DNA of 64,000 nt from Methanolobus tindarius DSM 2278 (GTDB lineage Archaea > Halobacteriota > Methanosarcinia > Methanosarcinales > Methanosarcinaceae), in NCBI RefSeq assembly GCF_000504205.1, contig NZ_AZAJ01000001.1:496001-560000 (forward strand), read 5' to 3'. Under the pieces are notes generated by a model, which had not been told where the DNA came from, made no database searches, and worked only from the letters and a program-made list of their open reading frames with translations. Made by a program: the position numbers and the translations under genes. This document shows positions 27,781-38,859 of this stretch, piece by piece. Each line of letters starts with the position of its first letter. The stretch's first letter is position 1.

Positions 27781-29553
27781 TTATCCAACTTCTACAAAAC
27801 CAGGTGTTTCATTGGTTTCATTTCCAGATGTCGAACTATTGAAACCTGAAGTTTCGTTAGTCCCATTTACTGATGAATTTTCAAATGAATCGTTTACAAG
27901 TTGAATTGTATTTTCAGAATCATTCACGGAATTATTTACATAACTCAGATTGGCCTGATCAGTTAGATTCCCATCAACTGCAGAATTGTTTCCTCCTGTG
28001 AGATTAGTGTAAACAGCCATCGGGCCTCCATTGAGGAATACATAAGCAATGCCCGCAATTAGAATCATTGCCACAATACCATATGAAGCCAGCATCATCA
28101 TATTCTGCTTTTTTTTCGTTTTAGCTTTTTGTTTAGCTGCAACATACTTTGTATTGAAATACCTGTCGAGGTTTTCTGCTTCGGTCGTCGTTAAATCGGA
28201 TGACAGATCATAGGCACGCAATTGAGTGCTTATATAATCAACAAAAATCTGCCCCCCTGTTGCAGGAGCAGTTCTTATGTTTTCACCTACAATTTTAAGC
28301 AGAACCACCAATTTCTCATTATCATATGAAGACAGAGCCGCAGCTACATTCTTACTGAACTTTTCACCGCCATAGTCGCCACGTGTAAATCCAACACTAC
28401 AAAGTGCATTTAATAATTCAACATCCCTGCCTGCATATATTCTGCGGATGGTATCTTTTATTACGTAGCTCCATAAACCTCTGTTTTTAAGAAGAGCGAT
28501 ATCAAGCTGCTTTTTTACACCGGCATTCCTTATCCTTTCAAAGAGACTTCTTAATGCTTCATCTTCTCCCATATTTGAAAAAATTGAATTTTGGGAGAGG
28601 TGATTACTGTATGACAGGAATATGTTTGCAATGGTAACTTCATTTGTCATCGGCATTTGTTTAATCTGTATGGATCTTTCTTTGAAAATCTGCACTAATG
28701 TAGAAACATCACCTTTGTAGAGTTCAAATAACCTATACAAAGACTCACTTGTTGCAAAAAGATCCAGAATATCCCATGTATGAAACCTGAAAGCAAAATT
28801 CTTTACAGTAAATGAAAGATTAATACGATTATTAGCTTGTAAAGATGCTTTAATATCGCTTTCATGTTCTTTGAAAACTCCTGGAAGCAACACATAATAT
28901 TCACTATAATGAGGAGCAGACTTCCATTTCAGAACATGTTCTTCAAGTTCAAAATCCGGATTTGGCTCAATGGGACAAATTGAAATATCAGTATCATAAG
29001 GATACTGTGAAGCCATAAATTTCAGGTCGGATTCAAGGGAATTGCCTACTGAGGAAAATACACTGTTTATCAGAGAAACTGCATTAACTGCACTGGCAGA
29101 CTTGACAGAGACTTTCTCATTGGCAAGCAGCTTACCAAAAGTATAGTCCACAGTAATCTCATCGGCGATAAGTTCCTTCAATCCTGAAAAGTCACTGATA
29201 TCATTCTCTTCCCAGAGACCGACTAATCTGTATTCCAGCTTCTGTAAATGTGATATCTCTGAAGAAACTGTTTCATAGAACTGAGTAATAAGAGCTGATT
29301 CGTGGCCATTATAACCTGAATACTTGCCAACACATACAATTCTCTCTTCCCTTCCACCTACTTCCTCAACCATGACACTGCAACCCAGTATCAGAACGCC
29401 TTCTTCATGTGAAAGTTCAAAATACAGGGCATTCCTCTTGGAATCTATCTGCTTTGCCAGATTAGTGTATTCGTTGGAATAAACTTCCCCCTCCCCACTA
29501 AGGAGTCTACCGGTGGAGTTGTAAACATAAAATTCAGAAACCAAACTTTGCAA
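27781..29553 (-). CDS. Single-span membrane protein with glycosylation-rich outer tail, in tubulin-like operon
   Basis: I do not recognise the family. From the TTG at 29553 (GGAGGGTG about 7-12 nt upstream) it has 590 residues. About 480 cytoplasmic residues begin with a small alpha/beta region (SEFYVYNSTGRLLSGEG, LILGCSVMVEE, RIVCVGKYSG) that could be a longin/roadblock-like fold. A long helical part follows, then a KKK-flanked membrane helix near 484-507 (LASYGIVAMILIAGIAYVF). The last 80 residues are Asn/Ser/Thr-rich with 13 N-x-S/T sequons and should lie outside the cell. It is the last gene of the tubulin-like operon and overlaps the GTPase gene by 20 nt. An earlier in-frame start at 29607 is less likely because it has no ribosome-binding site and a longer overlap. 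Confidence 0.8.
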   Translation of the reverse strand: MQSLVSEFYVYNSTGRLLSGEGEVYSNEYTNLAKQIDSKRNALYFELSHEEGVLILGCSVMVEEVGGREERIVCVGKYSGYNGHESALITQFYETVSSEISHLQKLEYRLVGLWEENDISDFSGLKELIADEITVDYTFGKLLANEKVSVKSASAVNAVSLINSVFSSVGNSLESDLKFMASQYPYDTDISICPIEPNPDFELEEHVLKWKSAPHYSEYYVLLPGVFKEHESDIKASLQANNRINLSFTVKNFAFRFHTWDILDLFATSESLYRLFELYKGDVSTLVQIFKERSIQIKQMPMTNEVTIANIFLSYSNHLSQNSIFSNMGEDEALRSLFERIRNAGVKKQLDIALLKNRGLWSYVIKDTIRRIYAGRDVELLNALCSVGFTRGDYGGEKFSKNVAAALSSYDNEKLVVLLKIVGENIRTAPATGGQIFVDYISTQLRAYDLSSDLTTTEAENLDRYFNTKYVAAKQKAKTKKKQNMMMLASYGIVAMILIAGIAYVFLNGGPMAVYTNLTGGNNSAVDGNLTDQANLSYVNNSVNDSENTIQLVNDSFENSSVNGTNETSGFNSSTSGNETNETPGFVEVG

Positions 29554-30985
29554 TTTGTTCCACCCTCCATGGATAAATATTTTTAATAGCTTCTTCCTGC
29601 TGGTCAACTCTCTTTAAAGCATTTGCACTTACAGCATAGAAATGAATAGGACCTTTTGTAGCCCGATGCTGGATCTCTTTAAAAGTGTCGATATCCTTCA
29701 GCATCTCTAAAATCTCTTTTTCAATATTAAGAGCATCTTTTGAATTATCAATCACATCTGTGATATTCTTAATTTTATCAGCTTTTGTAACGACAATCGC
29801 ATAAGATTTACCATCACCAAGCAATTCCATAATCCTTGAATACTGGCCAAACAAGCGAGTTAGCTGGCTTGCACCGTCCTCATGATAAGAGACAATATGT
29901 TCACCATCTACCAGAAAAACGACTTTGCCGGCATTTTCAAGTTTTTTATATACATGGGCCAGGACCAATTGATCAAGAATATAAACAACATCGTCAGGAT
30001 GAGTATTTTTCAGTTCTGCAATAAACTCATGGCTGCCAATCTTTCCACTTAAAGTATCTTTATCAAGCTCTGGAATTTGTTTATTTATTTCCAGAATAGC
30101 CTTGAAGTACCCGTCTTTAGTCAGGTTCTCAGTAAACTCGCCACCATAGTCAACAAATGAAAACTCAATGGGCTTGATTGACTTTTTGCCCATCAAAGTA
30201 TACATTGTCAGATCAGTTTTCTGATTACTTTTTGGCTGTTTCCCATTTTTTAGTTCTGCCAGCATGTTCTCGATCCTGTAATAATCCTCTTCTCTTGAAG
30301 AGGAAATTATAGTCTCGCTCCTGCGACCATTGTAATAATGAACGAACTGATTATACAGGGCAAGCAACAGCAGGGTTTTTCCTGATTTGGACGGACCATA
30401 AACAAAGACGTCTGAAGCCTTGATTCCATGCACGAACTTCATCAGTAATGCATGAAGAATCATCAAAGCAAAGAAGCTTAGTAAAATCATGAAAAGATCA
30501 TTAGAACCTGAGAGCACATACTGAGGTATTTCACGCATGTCTTCTTCAGATACTAATTTGATTAATATGATAAACAGGTAGATCATCATTCCTACAAAAA
30601 ACACTTTTAAAAATGAACGAGTCCTCTTTGCAACAATATCAAAGCGGTTGTTCATGAATGCATGCAATATGAATCCGAATCCTGCAAGTAAACCGGGGGC
30701 AATACCATCAAGTCTAAGTATATTATCCTGCACCCAGAAAAAGTAAAGATATGGTAAAAAGGCTGCCAGTAAAAGCTGCCCTCCAAACCGGGACCTTTCT
30801 TCAAACAGCATGCCTACGCCGCTTGAAATGAACAAAGCTATGAAAAAACTCAGTAATACAGCTATATACCATGTAAGCGAGGAGATAATCTGTTCACTTG
30901 TTGCAAACAGAAATCCCGTAGACAAGGCTAAACATAGCAAAAAAATAACCGGGTTGGTTATATTAGTCTTCCCCCGCAACCTCAT
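29534..30985 (-). CDS. Polytopic membrane protein with C-terminal GTPase domain
   Basis: 483 residues. About six membrane helices fill residues 10-190 (for example NPVIFLLCLALSTGFLFA and LFMILLSFFALMILHALLM). A P-loop domain follows: G1 GPSKSGKT near 196-203, G3 DYGGE near 276, G4 VVTKADK near 396 (TKxD form), and a YAVSANAL G5-like stretch. This is a GTPase tethered to the membrane by its own channel-like region, not a known transporter. An AGGTGG site precedes the ATG. It lies 26 nt after the tubulin-like gene and overlaps the last gene, so the four genes should be made together. Confidence 0.85.
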   Translation of the reverse strand: MRLRGKTNITNPVIFLLCLALSTGFLFATSEQIISSLTWYIAVLLSFFIALFISSGVGMLFEERSRFGGQLLLAAFLPYLYFFWVQDNILRLDGIAPGLLAGFGFILHAFMNNRFDIVAKRTRSFLKVFFVGMMIYLFIILIKLVSEEDMREIPQYVLSGSNDLFMILLSFFALMILHALLMKFVHGIKASDVFVYGPSKSGKTLLLLALYNQFVHYYNGRRSETIISSSREEDYYRIENMLAELKNGKQPKSNQKTDLTMYTLMGKKSIKPIEFSFVDYGGEFTENLTKDGYFKAILEINKQIPELDKDTLSGKIGSHEFIAELKNTHPDDVVYILDQLVLAHVYKKLENAGKVVFLVDGEHIVSYHEDGASQLTRLFGQYSRIMELLGDGKSYAIVVTKADKIKNITDVIDNSKDALNIEKEILEMLKDIDTFKEIQHRATKGPIHFYAVSANALKRVDQQEEAIKNIYPWRVEQIAKFGF

Positions 30986-31011
30986 AATGCCACCTTTTTC
31001 CAGTTAGCCAT

Positions 31012-34000
31012 TTACTCAAGAGCTTCACGAAGTTTTTTGACCTCGTAAAGATCCTTTATTTTAGGTACTATATCCTGACCGGCTCTCTCCAAGTTTGCCA
31101 GTTCACCTGCGTATTTCACATCAAGCAACTTTTTCCTGACAATATACTCCCCATCCTGCATTTTCAGAACATGGTGCAGGATATTGTCACTGCTCTGCTC
31201 GTACATCTTCCAGTATCCTCCACCGGATGTCAGCGGAGAAATATTATCAAGGAAACTTGTAGCTGCAAGCAGTGTGAGAGTTACTTCCCATGGTTTTGCG
31301 TGGGAATGTGTTATCACACGGGCATCCTGAGAGCTCTTCAGGGACATTATGGCATTGATATCAGTGGATATTGTGCTATTCACAACTGATGATGAAATGT
31401 ATGAGGAACGAGAACCTATGACAAGTCCCACTTTTCCGAAAGTCCACTTTTCCGTGGTGCTTATAGGTATCATCTGGTTATGGATTCCCAGTTTATAGTT
31501 CTCAAGCAGTGAAGGATACGTAGCCTTTACTTCAGAAAGAAGGTTGTTAAGCTCATTCATTCCGTTGTCATCGTTATCAAGATTAGTCAGGTCTGACATC
31601 TCGCCAATAAGAGACAGGATTTTCGGATTAATCTCGCCAACCTTTGTCCTGTAAAGACTTTTATCAGTCTTGTTCTTGGATTTGGTCTTCTCATTAATTG
31701 AGGACATGAAATGATAGAACGACTCGTAATGCTTATTGAGATCTCTTCTTGAACTGAATGTCTTTTCATGAAGTTCTTCGGCATGATCCATCATATCTGC
31801 AACTGAACGCTTTTCGCCAATCTCTTCTTTTATAGAATCAATATCCCCGGATATGGACTTTGATTTGAGGAAATATCCTTCCTTTTTAAGATATATTTCA
31901 GTCAGGCAATCCCTTAGAGAAGCTATTAACTCACTTCTCTCTGTCTGGTCAAAGATTGCATCAACCCTGTCATAATTGACTGATTCCTTACCGGCATCAC
32001 CCAATAGTGAAGAGATCGTCTGTTTCTTAATTTCGGAAGCTTTTTTGTGCAGTCCTTTGTTCAGGAAATCATCGGGTATGTAGAACTCAAAAGGACTGTT
32101 TATCTGAATGTTCCAGTGTTTAGCATTGGATTTTATGTAATCCTCTTTTTCTTTTTTCATTGCCTCGAACTTTCTGACCTTTTTCTTCTTATCGCCCTTT
32201 ATCAGACTGACAAGACCACCCTTTTCCTGCTTCTTTCTTTCAGAATCATAGAAATAATAGAGTGCAATGGATTCTATCAGGTTTATCAGGCCGTCATAAC
32301 TGCCTTCTATCTCATAAGAGAGGTCTTTGAATTCCTGCTGCATTGCTGAAACGTTGGCAGCCCTTAGCCAGCCACTTTTATCCCTGGCCTTGATATCATC
32401 ACTTTTTACATTGGAAATGAAGTCTTCAAGCTTCATCTTCAAATCCTTTTCCTTTTCATCCAGGGACAGGACTCTTTTATTGATAGCCAGATACTGTTCT
32501 ATTTCTTTCTCGTTGTCAGAAATCCTTTGCTCTGCCTTTTTAGTAACCTGACCTTTAAGCAGTTCTGCACCCTCGGATTCCTCTTCTTTTTCCATTACCT
32601 GTTTCTCAAGTTCCCTCATCTCATCCTTGAGTTTCTTGGACTTGACATTCATGTTGCTGATGGTGGAAGATATATTCTGGTTACCCTTGAGCATATCAAT
32701 AAGAGTTGACCTTGCAGACTCTTCAGATACACCGGAGACTTTTTTGAAGAGAAGAGCTGTTTCCTCCAGAACCTGAATGCTTTCGGGAATCAGATCTGCC
32801 AGCTTTTTATCATTCTCATCGGTAAGCTCATTTGACTTAACACTCTGTGAACCTGCCTTGACTTTGGAAAGATATTCAACCATGCCATCAAAAGTGCTTA
32901 TCTTATCGATCTGCATTTCTGCAGGAATCTGGTTTGCTATGAAATACTCGATTGTGTCCACACTCTTATAATTAAGAAGACGTCCAATCTCATGTTTCAG
33001 TACATTTTCAATATTCCTGTATTCCTTTTTGATGTACTCGAAGTTCTCTTTAGTTGGAGCGGTTTCCTTGAAAGAATACTGATTCTGTAAGAAAGAATCT
33101 ATCTGCTGGTTCAATTCTTTCCTGGAATTTGTAATCATTTCCAGAGAATTGATGATCTCTTCATACTGGTTCTTAAGTCCACGCAGATCCTCAATAGGAT
33201 ATTCAATAACATGGGAATTTGCAAAAATGAATGATGAGAATGACCCTTTTACGTCACTTATATTAATGTCACCGGTTTCCACATGGAAGAAATTAGTGAA
33301 AACATTAGGGAACATTGCATCGAACTCGTGAACCTCTGCACGTGCTTCTTCTCCCTTTTTGTATCCGGTAGGGCCAAGGGATGTGACAATCACATTGTTG
33401 AACAATCTCTCTGTCATGTTGAGATATTCAAGCTCAGTAAGGGCGATTGAAGCGTTTAATTGTTCCTTCTCTCCTTCCTGGGTTGTTGGAAGGACCACAA
33501 AGAGACATAGTTGTGTTGAATCGCCTTTAAATGAGCGTATATACCGTGCAAGGTCGATGAACATACCGGAACCTGTTCCACCTCCAAGACCCACAACAAT
33601 AGCAACGCTCCCCCTGCTTGAAAAAGTTGGGAAGCCGCTGGATTCACCTTCGGTTATGACCTTGTAAAATATTGCTTTGGAAATTGCTCTTCTGCGGTGA
33701 ACTCCACCACCAAAGTCATCCATTGCAAGGTGATCGATTTTCAACAAATCCTCAAAAACAATCCCATCTTCCGAATCATCGTTGAGCCACCAGGTTTTAA
33801 CTTTTGGCTCAGACCTCTTGTTCTTGACTTTCTCAGCAATTTCCTTGCTGGCAAGGTCAGGAACCTGGCTGATGTTTGCAAGAGATGGTAAATAATAGAA
33901 TTTAGTTTCAACGTTTCCCTGTGCTCCGCATTCGATTATTTTATTTTTCAGCTGTGAGACATGTAATTCATCGCCTTCTTTCTCGTTGGCATCGGCATCC

Positions 34001-34161
34001 ATTGTATAAACTTTAAGCCGTCTGCCATCAGCAGAATAGTGCTTCAGGAACCAGTCGTTATTGCATATTTCCATTGTCAGTCTTTTTCCGCAGCCTCCAA
34101 CACCAACTATTGTCATGTCAGTTGGTAATTGAAGTGGTGGAATTATCTTTTCATAACTCAT
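31012..34161 (-). CDS. Large tubulin/FtsZ-superfamily protein with coiled-coil insert
   Basis: 1049 residues. The N-terminal 320 form a tubulin-type GTPase: TIVGVGGCGKRLTMEI (first loop), a nucleotide-contact strand VYTMDADANE, and the signature GLGGGTGSGMFIDLARY near residues 188-204. Residues about 330-870 are charged and helical, with long heptad-like runs (near 470-600 and 640-700). The C-terminal 150 residues return to a folded domain (KVGLVIGSRSSYISSS, KPWEVTLTLLAATSFLDN). This matches the uncharacterised large tubulin-like family (Tubulin_2) rather than FtsZ or CetZ, which are about 360-400 residues. It likely assembles GTP-dependent polymers at the membrane together with its neighbours; that is inference. 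It overlaps the preceding gene by 4 nt. Confidence 0.88.
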   Translation of the reverse strand: MSYEKIIPPLQLPTDMTIVGVGGCGKRLTMEICNNDWFLKHYSADGRRLKVYTMDADANEKEGDELHVSQLKNKIIECGAQGNVETKFYYLPSLANISQVPDLASKEIAEKVKNKRSEPKVKTWWLNDDSEDGIVFEDLLKIDHLAMDDFGGGVHRRRAISKAIFYKVITEGESSGFPTFSSRGSVAIVVGLGGGTGSGMFIDLARYIRSFKGDSTQLCLFVVLPTTQEGEKEQLNASIALTELEYLNMTERLFNNVIVTSLGPTGYKKGEEARAEVHEFDAMFPNVFTNFFHVETGDINISDVKGSFSSFIFANSHVIEYPIEDLRGLKNQYEEIINSLEMITNSRKELNQQIDSFLQNQYSFKETAPTKENFEYIKKEYRNIENVLKHEIGRLLNYKSVDTIEYFIANQIPAEMQIDKISTFDGMVEYLSKVKAGSQSVKSNELTDENDKKLADLIPESIQVLEETALLFKKVSGVSEESARSTLIDMLKGNQNISSTISNMNVKSKKLKDEMRELEKQVMEKEEESEGAELLKGQVTKKAEQRISDNEKEIEQYLAINKRVLSLDEKEKDLKMKLEDFISNVKSDDIKARDKSGWLRAANVSAMQQEFKDLSYEIEGSYDGLINLIESIALYYFYDSERKKQEKGGLVSLIKGDKKKKVRKFEAMKKEKEDYIKSNAKHWNIQINSPFEFYIPDDFLNKGLHKKASEIKKQTISSLLGDAGKESVNYDRVDAIFDQTERSELIASLRDCLTEIYLKKEGYFLKSKSISGDIDSIKEEIGEKRSVADMMDHAEELHEKTFSSRRDLNKHYESFYHFMSSINEKTKSKNKTDKSLYRTKVGEINPKILSLIGEMSDLTNLDNDDNGMNELNNLLSEVKATYPSLLENYKLGIHNQMIPISTTEKWTFGKVGLVIGSRSSYISSSVVNSTISTDINAIMSLKSSQDARVITHSHAKPWEVTLTLLAATSFLDNISPLTSGGGYWKMYEQSSDNILHHVLKMQDGEYIVRKKLLDVKYAGELANLERAGQDIVPKIKDLYEVKKLREALE

Positions 34162-34904
34162 ATGTCATCATCCCCGTAATCATCGTCATCGGAATTACCG
34201 ATTCGAATACCGATTATCGCACCAATAATAAGAGCAACTATAATTCCACCAGCAGCCAGATACAATGAGATTTCCGGTCCCTCCTCCTCATCAGAATTAA
34301 GATAGTCTGCAAGCTCATTGGCTTCATGGACAAGTCCTTTATCAAAAAGATCCGAGAGATAGTTCCTCATAAAAGGATCTTCGATTGTGTCAAGTTTACT
34401 TTCAAAGGATTCGATCTCAGGAACACTTATAGTGAATATCCGGGTGTCACTGTCCTTCAGACTGTTCTTTTCGTCATCCAGGAGATTAAAGCGGTAGTAG
34501 GCGTATCCTGTTGTTTTTTCATCTAGTTTTATGAGAGTTACCTTATCAGTCTGGACAACTTCCCTTACAACAGGTACTTTTCCCTGTATGTGAACGAGTA
34601 CTTCTTCATCGCTGTCATTCAGGTCCAGTACATAATTATTGGAATTGCTGGTAATATCAAGTTCCGTAAAATTGTAAAGAGGATAATTTCCATATGCTTC
34701 CAGGTCAGTTTCAAAGGAAATGTAATCTGCTGACTGGGGAATACTGCTAATGGTGAGATCATACTCTATGATATCCCCTTCCTTTGCCTCATCAGGAAGA
34801 TTACCTGCAATATCAACATCTACTGCACCAACGTTCGAAATAAGAGAGATAAGAATAAAGAAACAAAGTATAGTTTCAACTATCAGTATATTGCGTGTTT
34901 TCAT
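34158..34904 (-). CDS. Secreted/membrane-anchored protein, first gene of tubulin-like operon
   Basis: 248 residues, family not recognised. An N-terminal signal (NILIVETILCFFILISLISNVGA) is followed by an extracellular beta-rich domain of about 190 residues resembling CARDB/Ig-like surface modules (IIEYDLTISSIP, VLVHIQGKVPVV). One C-terminal membrane helix (LYLAAGGIIVALIIGAIIGI) precedes a very acidic cytoplasmic tail (SDDDDYGDDDI). It could sense or anchor something outside and signal through the tail to the tubulin-like protein. The 4-nt ATGA overlap with the next gene shows translational coupling. Confidence 0.8.
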   Translation of the reverse strand: MKTRNILIVETILCFFILISLISNVGAVDVDIAGNLPDEAKEGDIIEYDLTISSIPQSADYISFETDLEAYGNYPLYNFTELDITSNSNNYVLDLNDSDEEVLVHIQGKVPVVREVVQTDKVTLIKLDEKTTGYAYYRFNLLDDEKNSLKDSDTRIFTISVPEIESFESKLDTIEDPFMRNYLSDLFDKGLVHEANELADYLNSDEEEGPEISLYLAAGGIIVALIIGAIIGIRIGNSDDDDYGDDDI

Positions 34905-35284
34905 GCTTCAACCCCAAAATAATTGCTTTCTTACAATAATTCCAATTTACACTAACCAAAACTGAAACTATTGTCCCACAAGTCAATAATTTTGTATATA
35001 AACTCCATCATTTAACTATATAATCTTTTTGATTTTATTGTGATTTTTAAATGAAATTAATAAAATATTAGAATCAAATAGAAAAGAAAGCGAGGATTAA
35101 TCCTTTTTGTATCAAAATAATTGAATTTAATCATATAATCAGAAAACAATTTCTTTGTACTTATTTTCGAATTTTCAGCATCAAAATATCAAAACCATTA
35201 TATCCCATAACTACACTACTACCCCTGCAACGTAACACAAATACTGTTGAGAATAATACTTCATATAAAAAAGAAGGTTACATC
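34905..35284. promoter_or_regulatory. Divergent intergenic region between tubulin-like operon and cbiX1
   Basis: 380 very AT-rich nt without a credible gene. TATA-like stretches for the minus operon lie around 34990-35030 (TATATAGTTAAATG on the minus strand). For cbiX1 they lie near 35197 and 35262 (CATATAAAA). The cbiX1 ribosome-binding site AAGAAGG lies 7 nt before the ATG. No clear operator is seen. Confidence 0.35.
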
Positions 35285-35680
35285 ATGAGTGAAAAAATCG
35301 GAATTTTAGCTATTGGACACGGCAGCAGATTACCATACAACAACCAGGTCGTAACAGAGATCGCAAACATGATCGCAGAGAACAACCCTGAATATGTTGT
35401 AAAGGCAGGATTCATGGAGAACAGTGAGCCTACAGTAGAAGAGGCACTCATGTCATTCGAAGGTACAGGCGTAACAACAATCGCTGCAGCACCAGTATTC
35501 CTTGCATCAGGTATCCATATCACAAAAGACATTCCTGCAATCCTCAAACTCGACCCTGAGACAAATGAGGGTGAGCTTGAACTTGACGGAAACAAAGTCA
35601 GGATCGTCTATGCAAAGCCTCTTGGCAGCGACAAGCTCATTGCAGATCTTATCTTCAAGAGAGCACAGGAAGTCCTGTAA
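35285..35680 (+). CDS. cfbA: Short CbiX/CfbA sirohydrochlorin chelatase, copy 1
   Basis: 131 residues, the size of the homodimeric archaeal short form (CbiXS/CfbA). [11 protein letters not shown] places a metal-binding histidine at residue 12, and [10 protein letters not shown] the second at residue 78. Family enzymes put Co (for cobalamin) or Ni (for F430) into sirohydrochlorin; the sequence does not say which. A second copy about three-quarters identical follows at 35976. Both end in the same hairpin. The gfollowing G3E GTPases support a metal-insertion context. The symbol cfbA could equally be cbiX. Confidence 0.9.
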
Positions 35681-35711: not shown

Positions 35712-35949
35712 TAGCAAATCATATTTTGCAATATTTTCATTTGATTCCATAATGGCCAATTATCTTGTACTTTTGATGGACATTTCATCAAAATAAAAAT
35801 CCTGAACCATAGTCATGGTCAGATATTTTGAATTGATATCAATAACTATTTTGTATTGCAACTAGAGTTTACTATATTTTACATATTATATGGAAAAATT
35901 AGGATTCACACGTGTTAAGTTCGCAAAGACATATATACCATAGTAATAA

Positions 35950-35971
35950 TGACCTTTGGGAAGGAAGGTCA
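35950..35971 (+). promoter_or_regulatory. Inverted repeat just before cbiX copy 2
   Basis: TGACCTT (35950-35956) and AAGGTCA (35965-35971) are perfect arms around an 8-nt loop that contains the Shine-Dalgarno-like GGGAAGG. A TATA box lies at about 35931-35937, so the start site would fall inside the repeat. A DNA operator at the start site is more likely than an RNA hairpin. Copy 1 has no such repeat. Confidence 0.45.
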
Positions 35972-35975
35972 CATT

Positions 35976-36371
35976 ATGAGTGAAAAAATAGGAATCTTGA
36001 TCATTGGACATGGCAGCAGGCTACCATATAACAATCAGGTTGTTACTGAAATTTCAAATATAATCGCAGAAAATAATCCGGAATATATTGTAAAAACAGG
36101 TTTTGTAGAACACAGTGAACCGAAAGTAAGAGATGCACTGATGTCATTTGAAGGCACAGGCGTAACTAAAATAGCTGCAACACCTGTATTCATGGCATCC
36201 GGAGTCCACCTCACAGAAGACATTCCTGAATTCATTAATCTGAAAGAAGGTACAAATGAAGGAGAGGTAAAATTGGATGGCAATATTGTAAAAATCTTAT
36301 ATGCAAAACCTCTTGGCAGTGACAGGCTCATTGCGGATCTTATCTTCAAGAGAGTGCAGGAAGCACTTTAA
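35976..36371 (+). CDS. Short CbiX/CfbA sirohydrochlorin chelatase, copy 2
   Basis: 131 residues from ATG 35976 (an ATG at 35949 would add nine residues but starts upstream of the likely transcription start). By hand alignment without gaps about 100 of 131 positions equal copy 1, including His12 ([10 protein letters not shown]) and His78 ([10 protein letters not shown]). The divergence is concentrated near residues 80-115. The two copies could serve different metals or pathways (Co for corrinoid, Ni for F430), or different conditions, since copy 2 has its own promoter with an inverted repeat. Confidence 0.9.
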
Positions 36372-36413: not shown

Positions 36414-37448
36414 TCAGGCAGCAATAAACTGAGATGAACTTGCATTAACAGCACTTTCTATAATATCCTCAAGATTATCCCTTGCAACATCCGTTACAGC
36501 TGCAAAGACAGTGAAGGTATTGCCAGCATTTCCATTTTCTGAGCCTATAAACTCCAGCTTTGGTTGATCCTTGTAGGATGTTACACTGACCCGCAAACCC
36601 ACAGAACCCGTGTGGAGGAACATCTTCAAATGCCCCAGGAACTGTGGGTTAATATCAAGAATGCCACTTCTGACAGATTGCATAACATCAAGAACCAAAC
36701 CTGATGCAGTTTCACCGTCCAGAAGAGCACTAAGCTCATAAGAACCTGCATAACTGCCAACATTGAAATGATTGAACTCATCATCACACGCAGTGTTACA
36801 GGCAATTGGAGTAGTATTTGATGATAAATTTGCATTCTCTTCAATGAAAGACGATTCTATTTTCTCCATAAATGAATTAAAACTTCCATCGCAGGATTCC
36901 ATTGACAAACTAAAAGTAGCTGAATCCGGATTGAAATCCTTTATAGTCGACATAATCTCAGCAACTTGTTCCCTGTCCAGCAAATCCTGTTTATTAAGAA
37001 CAACGATATCCGCATTTTTAACCTGCTTTATGATAGAATCACCCGAATGTTCCATTAGTTCACCGAACTTACTGCCATCTATCAGAGAGATAATTGGACC
37101 CATGTTCACTTCAGGACCAAAATCCATTTTCTCTATCTGCTCTTTTATTCTCAGGGGAAATGCAACACCTGTAGGTTCTATAAGAAGGATATCCGGATCA
37201 AACTGTGCCTGCACAAGGGAAATATTGGCTTCAAGGGCGTACTTTAATGTACAGCAAATACATCCTCGTGGAATTTCCTTGGACTCAAGTCCGTTGTTAC
37301 TGATAACCTGACCATCCACACCCACATCACCAATATCATTTACAAGCACTGCCACGCTGTATCCTTTAGATTTAAAGTGATTTCCCATCCGGATTATGGA
37401 AGTTGTTTTACCGCTTCCCAGAAAACCACTTACGAGTATTATGTTCAT
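36414..37448 (-). CDS. G3E (CobW/HypB/UreG-like) GTPase 1
   Basis: 344 residues. P-loop GFLGSGKTT near residues 8-16; switch/metal motif GCICCTLKY near 62-70 (CxCC, the COG0523 metal site); EPTGVAFP; and NKQDLL as G4. The C-terminal 130 residues form a small alpha/beta domain ending DIIESAVNASSSQF. COG0523 proteins deliver Zn, Co or other metals using GTP. With two CbiX/CfbA chelatase genes directly upstream in the window (convergent), Co or Ni delivery is a reasonable inference. GGAGGG precedes the ATG. Confidence 0.9.
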   Translation of the reverse strand: MNIILVSGFLGSGKTTSIIRMGNHFKSKGYSVAVLVNDIGDVGVDGQVISNNGLESKEIPRGCICCTLKYALEANISLVQAQFDPDILLIEPTGVAFPLRIKEQIEKMDFGPEVNMGPIISLIDGSKFGELMEHSGDSIIKQVKNADIVVLNKQDLLDREQVAEIMSTIKDFNPDSATFSLSMESCDGSFNSFMEKIESSFIEENANLSSNTTPIACNTACDDEFNHFNVGSYAGSYELSALLDGETASGLVLDVMQSVRSGILDINPQFLGHLKMFLHTGSVGLRVSVTSYKDQPKLEFIGSENGNAGNTFTVFAAVTDVARDNLEDIIESAVNASSSQFIAA

Positions 37449-37518: not shown

Positions 37519-38859
37519 TCAGAGGATGCAATCTCCTCCCTCTGCACCACATCCTGTCAAATCATGATCATAGATATCATCCATATCTTCCACCTCACCG
37601 TGAAGATGCTTATGATCATGGCTATGATGATCATGGTGGCCTTCATGGTCATCATCGTGGTGATGGTGGTCGTGATCATGAGGCTCATGCAAGCGCTGAG
37701 AGGTCATGTTCCTTTTATTGAAAGCAGATTCAACATTTTCATCCACCAGATGTACAAGTTCATTTTCATTTAATCCTGAAACTGCTGTAAGTATCTTAAA
37801 TCTGGGACCGGAATGTGCAGTTGTTTCTATAATATTCATGGAAGGACTTTCAGCATGGGAAGTGATACTTATTTTTACAGTCTCATCCGGAACTTCCATG
37901 AACATTTTGATATGTCCTACAAACTCAGGACTGTGCTTTATGATTGAACTTTTCACATTTTCAGCAATTTCCAGTGTAATCTGCCTGGCAGTTTCCCTGT
38001 CAATATCGTCTTCAAGTATCCTGTAGTCATTAGCATATGAAGCAAGTCCTGAACTTTCGCTGTCATAATGCGTATGGTTGTCGTGATGGTGATGATCGTG
38101 ACTGTGATGATCATGGTTGTGATCATGTGCATCATGATTGTCTTCATGGTGATGATCGTGCTCTTCATGATCTGCATCACGATGACTGTGATCGTGAGAA
38201 TGTGGCTTAGCAGCATGTTCTTTCACATGAGTTGCAGAAACATGCTCATCTTCTGATACAGATGGAACTATCATACTCATAAGTTCAGTGAAACCGGAGT
38301 CATCAGGACGTGATGACATCTTAATGACGCTGGCATCAGAATTGAGCTGCTGTACTGAATCCATAAGCACAGACATTTTAATAGGCTCAACAAGATCAGC
38401 CTTATTAATCACAAGTATCTCAGCATCCTCTATTTGCCTTAATGCATAGACCTTGACGGATTTCATAATTTCCTTGAAACGGCTCCCATCTATCAGTGTC
38501 ACAAGAGGAGCTACTCTGATATTGTCCCCGAAGTTCATTAATTCAAGTTCTTTTTTAATGAGATTCGGGAAAGCAATACCGGATGGTTCTACCAGAATAT
38601 AATCAGGATTATATGAGTGATAAAGTTCAGTAAGTGTTGTTTTCATGTTGAGCTTCAAGGTACAGCAGATACAGCCATTTGTTATTTCCTTAGTGTCAAG
38701 CCCGTATTTTGATATGAGATCTCCGTCAATGCCTACTTCTCCAACCTCATTGACAATTATTGCTACTGTGTGGCCCCTTTCAGCCAATTCCTTACCTACA
38801 TTAATTACTGTTGTCGTCTTTCCGCTGCCTAAAAATCCACCTATGATTATTGCATCCAT
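37519..38859 (-). CDS. G3E (COG0523) GTPase 2 with long histidine-rich segments
   Basis: 446 residues. The core parallels GTPase 1: GGFLGSGKTTT near residue 7, NGCICCTLKLN near 62, EPSGIAFPNL, and NKADLVEP as G4. A linker around residues 215-267 contains about 23 histidines, with many Asp. The C-terminus (about 395-435) adds some 17 more, then ends GCGAEGGDCIL with two cysteines. Such His-rich stretches store or sense divalent metals in HypB and CobW relatives. It lies 70 nt upstream of GTPase 1 on the same strand, with its own AGGAGG site. The histidine codons make locally repetitive DNA at about 37610-37690 and 38065-38215. Confidence 0.92.
   Translation of the reverse strand: MDAIIIGGFLGSGKTTTVINVGKELAERGHTVAIIVNEVGEVGIDGDLISKYGLDTKEITNGCICCTLKLNMKTTLTELYHSYNPDYILVEPSGIAFPNLIKKELELMNFGDNIRVAPLVTLIDGSRFKEIMKSVKVYALRQIEDAEILVINKADLVEPIKMSVLMDSVQQLNSDASVIKMSSRPDDSGFTELMSMIVPSVSEDEHVSATHVKEHAAKPHSHDHSHRDADHEEHDHHHEDNHDAHDHNHDHHSHDHHHHDNHTHYDSESSGLASYANDYRILEDDIDRETARQITLEIAENVKSSIIKHSPEFVGHIKMFMEVPDETVKISITSHAESPSMNIIETTAHSGPRFKILTAVSGLNENELVHLVDENVESAFNKRNMTSQRLHEPHDHDHHHHDDDHEGHHDHHSHDHKHLHGEVEDMDDIYDHDLTGCGAEGGDCIL

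Follow-up and report, generated by a model that had tools for sequence, protein, structure and literature searches.

A four-gene membrane cassette of the FtsZl1 type in Methanolobus tindarius, with a split tubulin fold in the structure model and a possible GTPase regulator

We describe a cassette of four genes, here called A to D, on the minus strand of a 64,000-nucleotide stretch of the genome of the methanogenic archaeon Methanolobus tindarius DSM 2278 (contig NZ_AZAJ01000001.1, positions 496,001 to 560,000). This whole stretch is referred to as the window, and all coordinates are counted from its first letter. The genes, and the larger block to which they belong, are as follows.

34158..34904, minus strand: gene A, secreted and C-terminally anchored protein (predicted), 248 amino acids
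31012..34161, minus strand: gene B, tubulin-superfamily protein of the FtsZl1/Tubulin_2 type, 1049 amino acids
29534..30985, minus strand: gene C, polytopic membrane GTPase (predicted), 483 amino acids
27781..29553, minus strand: gene D, cytoplasmic regulator-like protein (predicted) with one membrane helix and an outer tail, 590 amino acids, start codon TTG
27781..35180, no strand: block absent as a unit from near relatives, with an empty site in genomes G136, G120, G128 and G116

An earlier reading, made from the sequence only, had called the four genes tightly coupled, and re-measurement of the order A-B-C-D (34904 to 27781) returned the same values: an overlap of 4 nucleotides between A and B, a gap of 26 between B and C, and an overlap of 20 between C and D. 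The longest frame of D, from TTG 29607, was rejected, because homology to relatives starts only at TTG 29553, behind a GGAGG, and D is therefore taken as 590 residues from that point. At its 3' end D meets fdhD head-on with zero spacer, and A is divergent from a cfbA-like gene. The sequence-only reading had further described a secreted and anchored protein, a 1049-residue tubulin-like protein, a polytopic membrane GTPase and a single-span protein with a glycosylated outer tail, hence two GTPases of different superfamilies and two membrane-anchored proteins with parts outside the cell. The results below bear out this description, with the qualification that glycosylation of the tail of D stays a prediction.

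Gene B has the following parts.

33196..34125, minus strand: B residues ~13-322, tubulin GTPase domain, H7, T7-like loop and first strand (S7) of the C-terminal domain, placed by secondary structure and fold match
33565..33585, minus strand: B residues 193-199, GGGTGSG tubulin signature (T4 loop)
33253..33270, minus strand: B residues 298-303, putative T7 catalytic loop DINISD, read by eye and without profile-alignment support
31462..33129, minus strand: B residues ~345-900, coiled-coil/helical insert inside the tubulin fold, from model helices and spanned by the VIA-align ranges
31252..31449, minus strand: B residues ~905-970, remainder of the tubulin C-terminal domain, from model strands; the FtsZ matches end at 969/970

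B matches the Pfam family Tubulin_2 (PF13809) with E 3.3e-13 and 50.1 bits, the cut-off being 27. Structure prediction, on which the sequence-only reading had staked its tubulin claim, gave a complete tubulin fold: the AlphaFold model (built on 39 sequences, mean predicted local distance difference test score, pLDDT, of 87) aligns with CetZ1 at Z 23.3 over 319 of 330 residues, with FtsZ at Z ~21 and with tubulin at Z ~20, the matched part running from model residue 12 to 970-1027. As modelled, this fold is complete but split by a coiled-coil insert of ~560 residues, in which long helices occupy residues 498-586 and 763-828, and the strands of the C-terminal domain lie beyond it at 910-917, 947-952 and 959-967. 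The GGGTGSG motif is invariant or nearly so among homologues, and the GTP-binding loops are conserved throughout the 39 sequences, which range from methanogens to haloarchaea. Which residues form H7, T7 and S7-S10 is our own reading of secondary structure and sequence and should be taken as putative; the putative T7 loop reads DINISD, against NLDFAD in FtsZ of the genus. When B is aligned by profile to FtsZ and CetZ, the match is limited to residues ~147-259 and the C-terminal part gives nothing, so that the claim of a C-terminal tubulin domain rests on the structure model. B would hence have the same two-domain fold as CetZ and FtsZ (Z 20-23), from which it differs in its insert and in forming a separate family, and the genome has FtsZ and CetZ genes of its own, namely three canonical tubulin-superfamily genes of which two are FtsZ-like and one CetZ-like by sequence.

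Gene C lies directly downstream of B and has the following features.

30458..30961, minus strand: C residues 9-176, five hydropathic membrane helices
30374..30397, minus strand: C residues 197-204, Walker A motif GPSKSGKT, with G197, P198, S201, G202 and K203 invariant
30137..30151, minus strand: C residues 279-283, DYGGE (G3), whose Glu is said to mark DO-GTPases
29777..29788, minus strand: C residues 400-403, TKAD (G4), with T400, K401 and D403 invariant

The key residues of these motifs are invariant or nearly so in 24 homologues. Against the family DO-GTPase2 (PF19993) C itself scores 26.3 bits, slightly below the cut-off of 27; the family is matched by all 24 of the homologues (best E 1.8e-6), and profile comparison of C with two archaeal DO-GTPases gives E 5.9e-5 over its C-terminal half. 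C is accordingly best described as a predicted membrane-embedded P-loop GTPase resembling the DO-GTPases. Gene A, at the head of the cassette, has a signal peptide (~1-27), an ectodomain (~28-210), a membrane helix (215-233) preceded by a conserved helical stretch, and a short acidic cytoplasmic tail. A Pfam scan of the window's A protein gave no significant match, and a beta-sandwich is our guess for the ectodomain.

The last gene, D, appears to be built of five parts.

29251..29541, minus strand: D residues 5-101, longin/roadblock-like domain (b-b-a-b-b-b-a) in the model
28945..29232, minus strand: D residues 108-203, alpha/beta domain, in a DENN-like arrangement with the first domain in the model
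28156..28905, minus strand: D residues 217-466, alpha-solenoid in the model
28045..28101, minus strand: D residues 485-503, membrane helix, from model and hydropathy
27784..28029, minus strand: D residues 509-590, disordered outer tail with 13 N-X-S/T sequons

The 13 sequons fall within residues 517-581, and from them the tail is presumed to be glycosylated. Searches of family databases gave D no match, and its profile found nothing significant among PDB sequences. The structure model (33 sequences, mean pLDDT 82) predicts a cytoplasmic part in which a longin/roadblock-like domain is followed by an alpha/beta domain and then by an alpha-solenoid. Its best match among solved structures is DENND10 (Foldseek E 0.01, probability 0.96), with PAS/GAF-type sensors also appearing lower down the match list besides Roadblock, longin and DENN proteins. 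Residues 1-281 align with DENND1A at Z 7.7 (213 residues, root-mean-square deviation 5.3) and with DENND1B at Z 7.4 (~214 residues), and residues 1-109 match MglB, archaeal Roadblocks, longins, Ragulator and TRAPP at Z 5-6.3 (MglB and archaeal Roadblocks 6.3). All of these proteins regulate GTPases or serve as platforms for them. The DENN module, consisting of longin, DENN and d-DENN parts, has been described as eukaryotic (PMC3521125), and the model of D shows the same order of longin (u-DENN), alpha/beta and helical parts, without a sequence match. The likeness of D to the DENN regulators of Rabs and to MglB is a moderate match without sequence support; with Z values this modest and no link from D to roadblock or GAP1 proteins by any profile method, we treat the predicted GTPase-regulator-like fold, which is new here, as a lead. 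Two candidate identities found no support at the sequence level. As a roadblock protein, D reached a probability of 0.8% in profile comparison with ~20 archaeal Roadblocks; as for GAP1, PF20013 and PF20014 are absent from the genome and comparison with two GAP1 proteins stayed at the level of shuffled controls, a weak comparison given that only two archaeal GAP1 sequences were found and that plasmid and viral-contig searches yielded none.

Haloarchaeal D proteins keep the N-terminal domain and the membrane helix and carry CarboxypepD_reg-type repeats outside, and the D of one Methanolobus relative carries PKD outside. Such constancy inside and variability outside is as expected for a sensor. 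In some Methanosarcina the middle part of D has been lost. We also note that D is duplication-prone: L050:12030-14495 encodes 821 amino acids with two matches to the N-terminal region in one frame, and L035:4354-4665 is a loose extra fragment of the D N-terminus beside the full gene.

The distribution of the cassette was surveyed in 186 genomes of the order, a close B homologue being one above 40% identity. Close B homologues and C homologues occur in an identical set of 25 genomes, and D occurs in 24 of these and in two others. The sequence-only reading had named as a weak point that its genes might never co-occur elsewhere; homologue and neighbourhood searches show that they do, and that their order is kept. 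The order A-B-C-D is constant in nearly all complete Methanosarcinaceae loci and is kept in at least 16 other loci, which, together with the low ratio of nonsynonymous to synonymous substitution rates (dN/dS), indicates that the four-gene arrangement is not due to chance. Wholly or in part, the cassette is present in Methanosarcinaceae, Methanomicrobiales, anaerobic methanotrophic (ANME) groups and haloarchaea: the full order A-B-C-D is seen in Methanoculleus, in one further Methanomicrobiales genome and, at 20-25% identity, in Methanoperedens and GoM-Arc1; Methanofollis has A-B-C and the haloarchaea have B-C-D. An A homologue stands at the same place in the Methanosarcinaceae, Methanomicrobiales, Methanoperedens and GoM-Arc1 loci. 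The dN/dS ratio is ~0.01-0.3 throughout the cassette (0.01-0.02 in the GTPase domain of B), except in the outer tail of D (0.16-0.52); it is below 1 everywhere, and the whole cassette is under purifying selection.

The presence of the cassette is patchy, at 33 of the 186 genomes in the order and 6 of 27 in the genus; in the nearest named relative, M. bombayensis, B is 91% identical. In the four relatives with the empty site fdhD runs directly into the upstream region of cfbA, and ~7.4 kb is therefore present or absent as one block. In G118 the cassette lies at a different chromosomal place. The tree of B mostly follows taxonomy, so that loss with some transfer suffices to explain the distribution. 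Three further loci deserve mention in their own right. The Methanosarcina metagenome-assembled genome G149 holds three near-identical B copies (L075, L076 and L084), two of them with C and D, at or near contig ends. In G081 the Tubulin_2 paralogue L060:7802-11089, a diverged B-like gene for which no GTPase is recognised, adjoins L060:5517-7268 in a neighbourhood of typical conflict type. In haloarchaea, D is directly followed by genes for protein kinase-like products that carry propeller or CarboxypepD_reg domains (L087:14971-19578 and L088:15370-17394), in agreement with the kinases noted beside FtsZl1 for Halorhabdus (PMC2875224).

The sequence-only reading knew of no described function for such an archaeal set, and in this it was wrong, for the outlines of the system were already in the literature of 2010 and 2020. 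Makarova and Koonin (2010; PMC2875224) reported FtsZl1, including archaeal members of ~1050 amino acids beside membrane-associated GTPases, and predicted a role in membrane remodelling; DO-GTPase/GAP1/tubulin systems, with predicted conflict functions, are the subject of Kaur et al. (2020; PMC7159879). We are highly confident that the cassette represents the FtsZl1 (Tubulin_2) multi-component system in its archaeal form. B has the FtsZl1 length of ~1050 residues, the GGGTGSG signature and the coiled coil (PMC2875224; PF13809); the P-loop GTPase that is a frequent operon companion of FtsZl1 is present as C, beside B and in the same 25 genomes, and is membrane-bound, as are the archaeal FtsZl1-linked GTPases and unlike the bacterial ones (PMC2875224). 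The membrane partners are lineage-specific, as in FtsZl1, and Methanosarcina was already among the members of 2010. The cassette differs in having no vWA, OmpA or kinase gene; a vWA or OmpA companion is common in FtsZl1 operons without being universal, and so does not define the family, and A, C and D have no such Pfam match. The present analysis goes beyond the 2010 picture in two respects, the complete tubulin fold and the predicted fold of partner D. The authors of 2010 did not find the T6-H7 elements and the C-terminal tubulin domain, and for this reason left filament formation by FtsZl1 open (PMC2875224); the complete split fold modelled here is new, its second half not having been findable at that time.

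With the DO-GTPase/GAP1-N2 systems (PMC7159879) the cassette shares a DO-GTPase-like protein with N-terminal membrane helices, a tubulin with coiled coil, and, just downstream, a three-part partner with a C-terminal membrane helix and outer beta domains. D matches GAP1 in position and layout, though not in sequence: in GAP1-N2 systems GAP1 too is encoded after the GTPase, and it commonly has a membrane helix and outer domains at its end. The cassette has no GAP1-N2 or GAP1-M match, fibronectin type III (FNIII) protein, zinc ribbons or recognised effector; a Pfam search of the four proteins found no FN3. Archaeal DO-GTPase/GAP1-N2 systems are uncommon, with 2 of 393 genomes exceeding the cut-off (L139 in G401 and L140 in G015); these systems include fn3 or zinc-ribbon proteins, and L140 an HSP70-like gene. 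A third comparison is with MglA/MglB, Rag/Ragulator and the DENN regulators of Rabs, whose regulator half the N-terminal part of D resembles, with a GTPase encoded beside it; unlike in those systems, no sequence kinship was detected, C is not a small GTPase of the Ras/MglA type, and D is membrane-anchored.

Taken together, we lean, by a little better than an even chance, towards an archaeal FtsZl1 system in which an outside-facing switch controls a membrane tubulin filament. The outer parts of D and A would sense ligands or envelope stress, and this sensing would change the nucleotide state of C, the longin and alpha/beta part of D binding C and setting its GTP/GDP state in the way that MglB acts on MglA and DENN modules act on Rabs. 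Active C would then recruit or release B at the membrane, where B would polymerise head to tail, with its coiled-coil arm extended towards the membrane or tying filaments to one another, and the filament would bend, seal or reorganise the membrane locally. For this chain from sensing through the state of C to control of the B filament, our confidence falls just short of even. Several points weigh against the reading. The structural matches of D reach only Z 6-8, and the comparison tool itself warns that 7-8 can be background; no sequence profile supports a longin, roadblock or GAP1 kinship of D; and its N-terminal domain belongs to a PAS-like superfold that is also used for ligand sensing. The putative T7 loop of B has N where FtsZ carries its first catalytic Asp, and hydrolysis may therefore be slow or absent, while the large insert could block polymerisation. 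No experiment on this cassette or a related system was found in the literature.

The sequence-only reading had proposed a cytoskeletal or conflict machine, a class that is reasonable and that takes in both envelope remodelling and conflict. A mostly vertical tree, metabolic surroundings and the lack of effectors favour membrane remodelling, and a housekeeping system for S-layer contact, vesicle formation or cell shape (compare PMC2875224), with no role in conflict, has a probability that we put slightly under one half. All partners are membrane-bound, the outer domains are of surface-protein type (CarboxypepD_reg, SpaA, PKD), the tree is ancient and purifying selection strong; the three canonical FtsZ/CetZ genes also fit, since division is covered elsewhere. 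Yet most relatives with the same cell plan are without the cassette, and in its neighbourhoods genes for division, the S-layer or secretion do not recur. The kinship of C to DO-GTPases, the patchiness, the clean presence or absence of the block and its other chromosomal place in G118, the fastest evolution in the outer tail of D, and the diverged B paralogue of G081, which has a caspase/FGE-sulfatase protein and a ResIII helicase as neighbours, favour instead an antiviral conflict system, in which the GTPases would form a threshold switch and B would polymerise on sensing an invader and block or kill the infected cell (compare PMC7159879). We nevertheless regard this as unlikely: PADLOC-DB 2.0 gives 0 families for the four proteins, the cassette contains no effector domain and sits amid metabolic genes in the M. 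tindarius genome, the B tree largely follows taxonomy with dN/dS below 1, and of 95 neighbours few match defence models, mostly of kinase type plus one type I restriction enzyme, a count for which no baseline was computed. It is likewise improbable that B is a non-filamentous scaffold gated by GTP, with C and D held together by its coiled coil, a possibility raised by the authors of 2010 (PMC2875224) with which the large insert in the C-terminal tubulin domain and a T7 loop short of one acidic residue would agree, given the complete two-domain fold, the very strong conservation of the GTPase domain, and the statement that all superfamily members characterised by 2010 form filaments (PMC2875224).

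Since its description in 2010 FtsZl1 has remained an orphan of the tubulin superfamily. One reason was that half of the tubulin fold could not be recognised, which left its capacity to form filaments uncertain. The model places that half beyond the coiled-coil insert, so that filament formation can now be tested directly. For D, a predicted fold like that of GTPase regulators offers a concrete hypothesis for how signals from outside might reach a tubulin, and it bears on the origin of the eukaryotic longin and DENN regulators. A bolder proposal, which we consider doubtful, is that D is a membrane-anchored prokaryotic counterpart of the three-part DENN module, regulating C and thereby the split-fold tubulin filament. 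If so, GTPase regulation of the DENN type would extend beyond eukaryotes, and the GAP1 proteins of bacterial conflict systems, which have a similar three-part order, might share the fold.

Two observations concern the surroundings of the cassette. Tandem, similar small proteins of the CbiX/CfbA type adjoin it in the window (35285-35680 and 35949-36371), and their copy number seems variable among relatives. An adjacent pair of CobW-like GTPases is encoded at 36414-37448 and 37519-38859, the second with long His/Asp-rich stretches.

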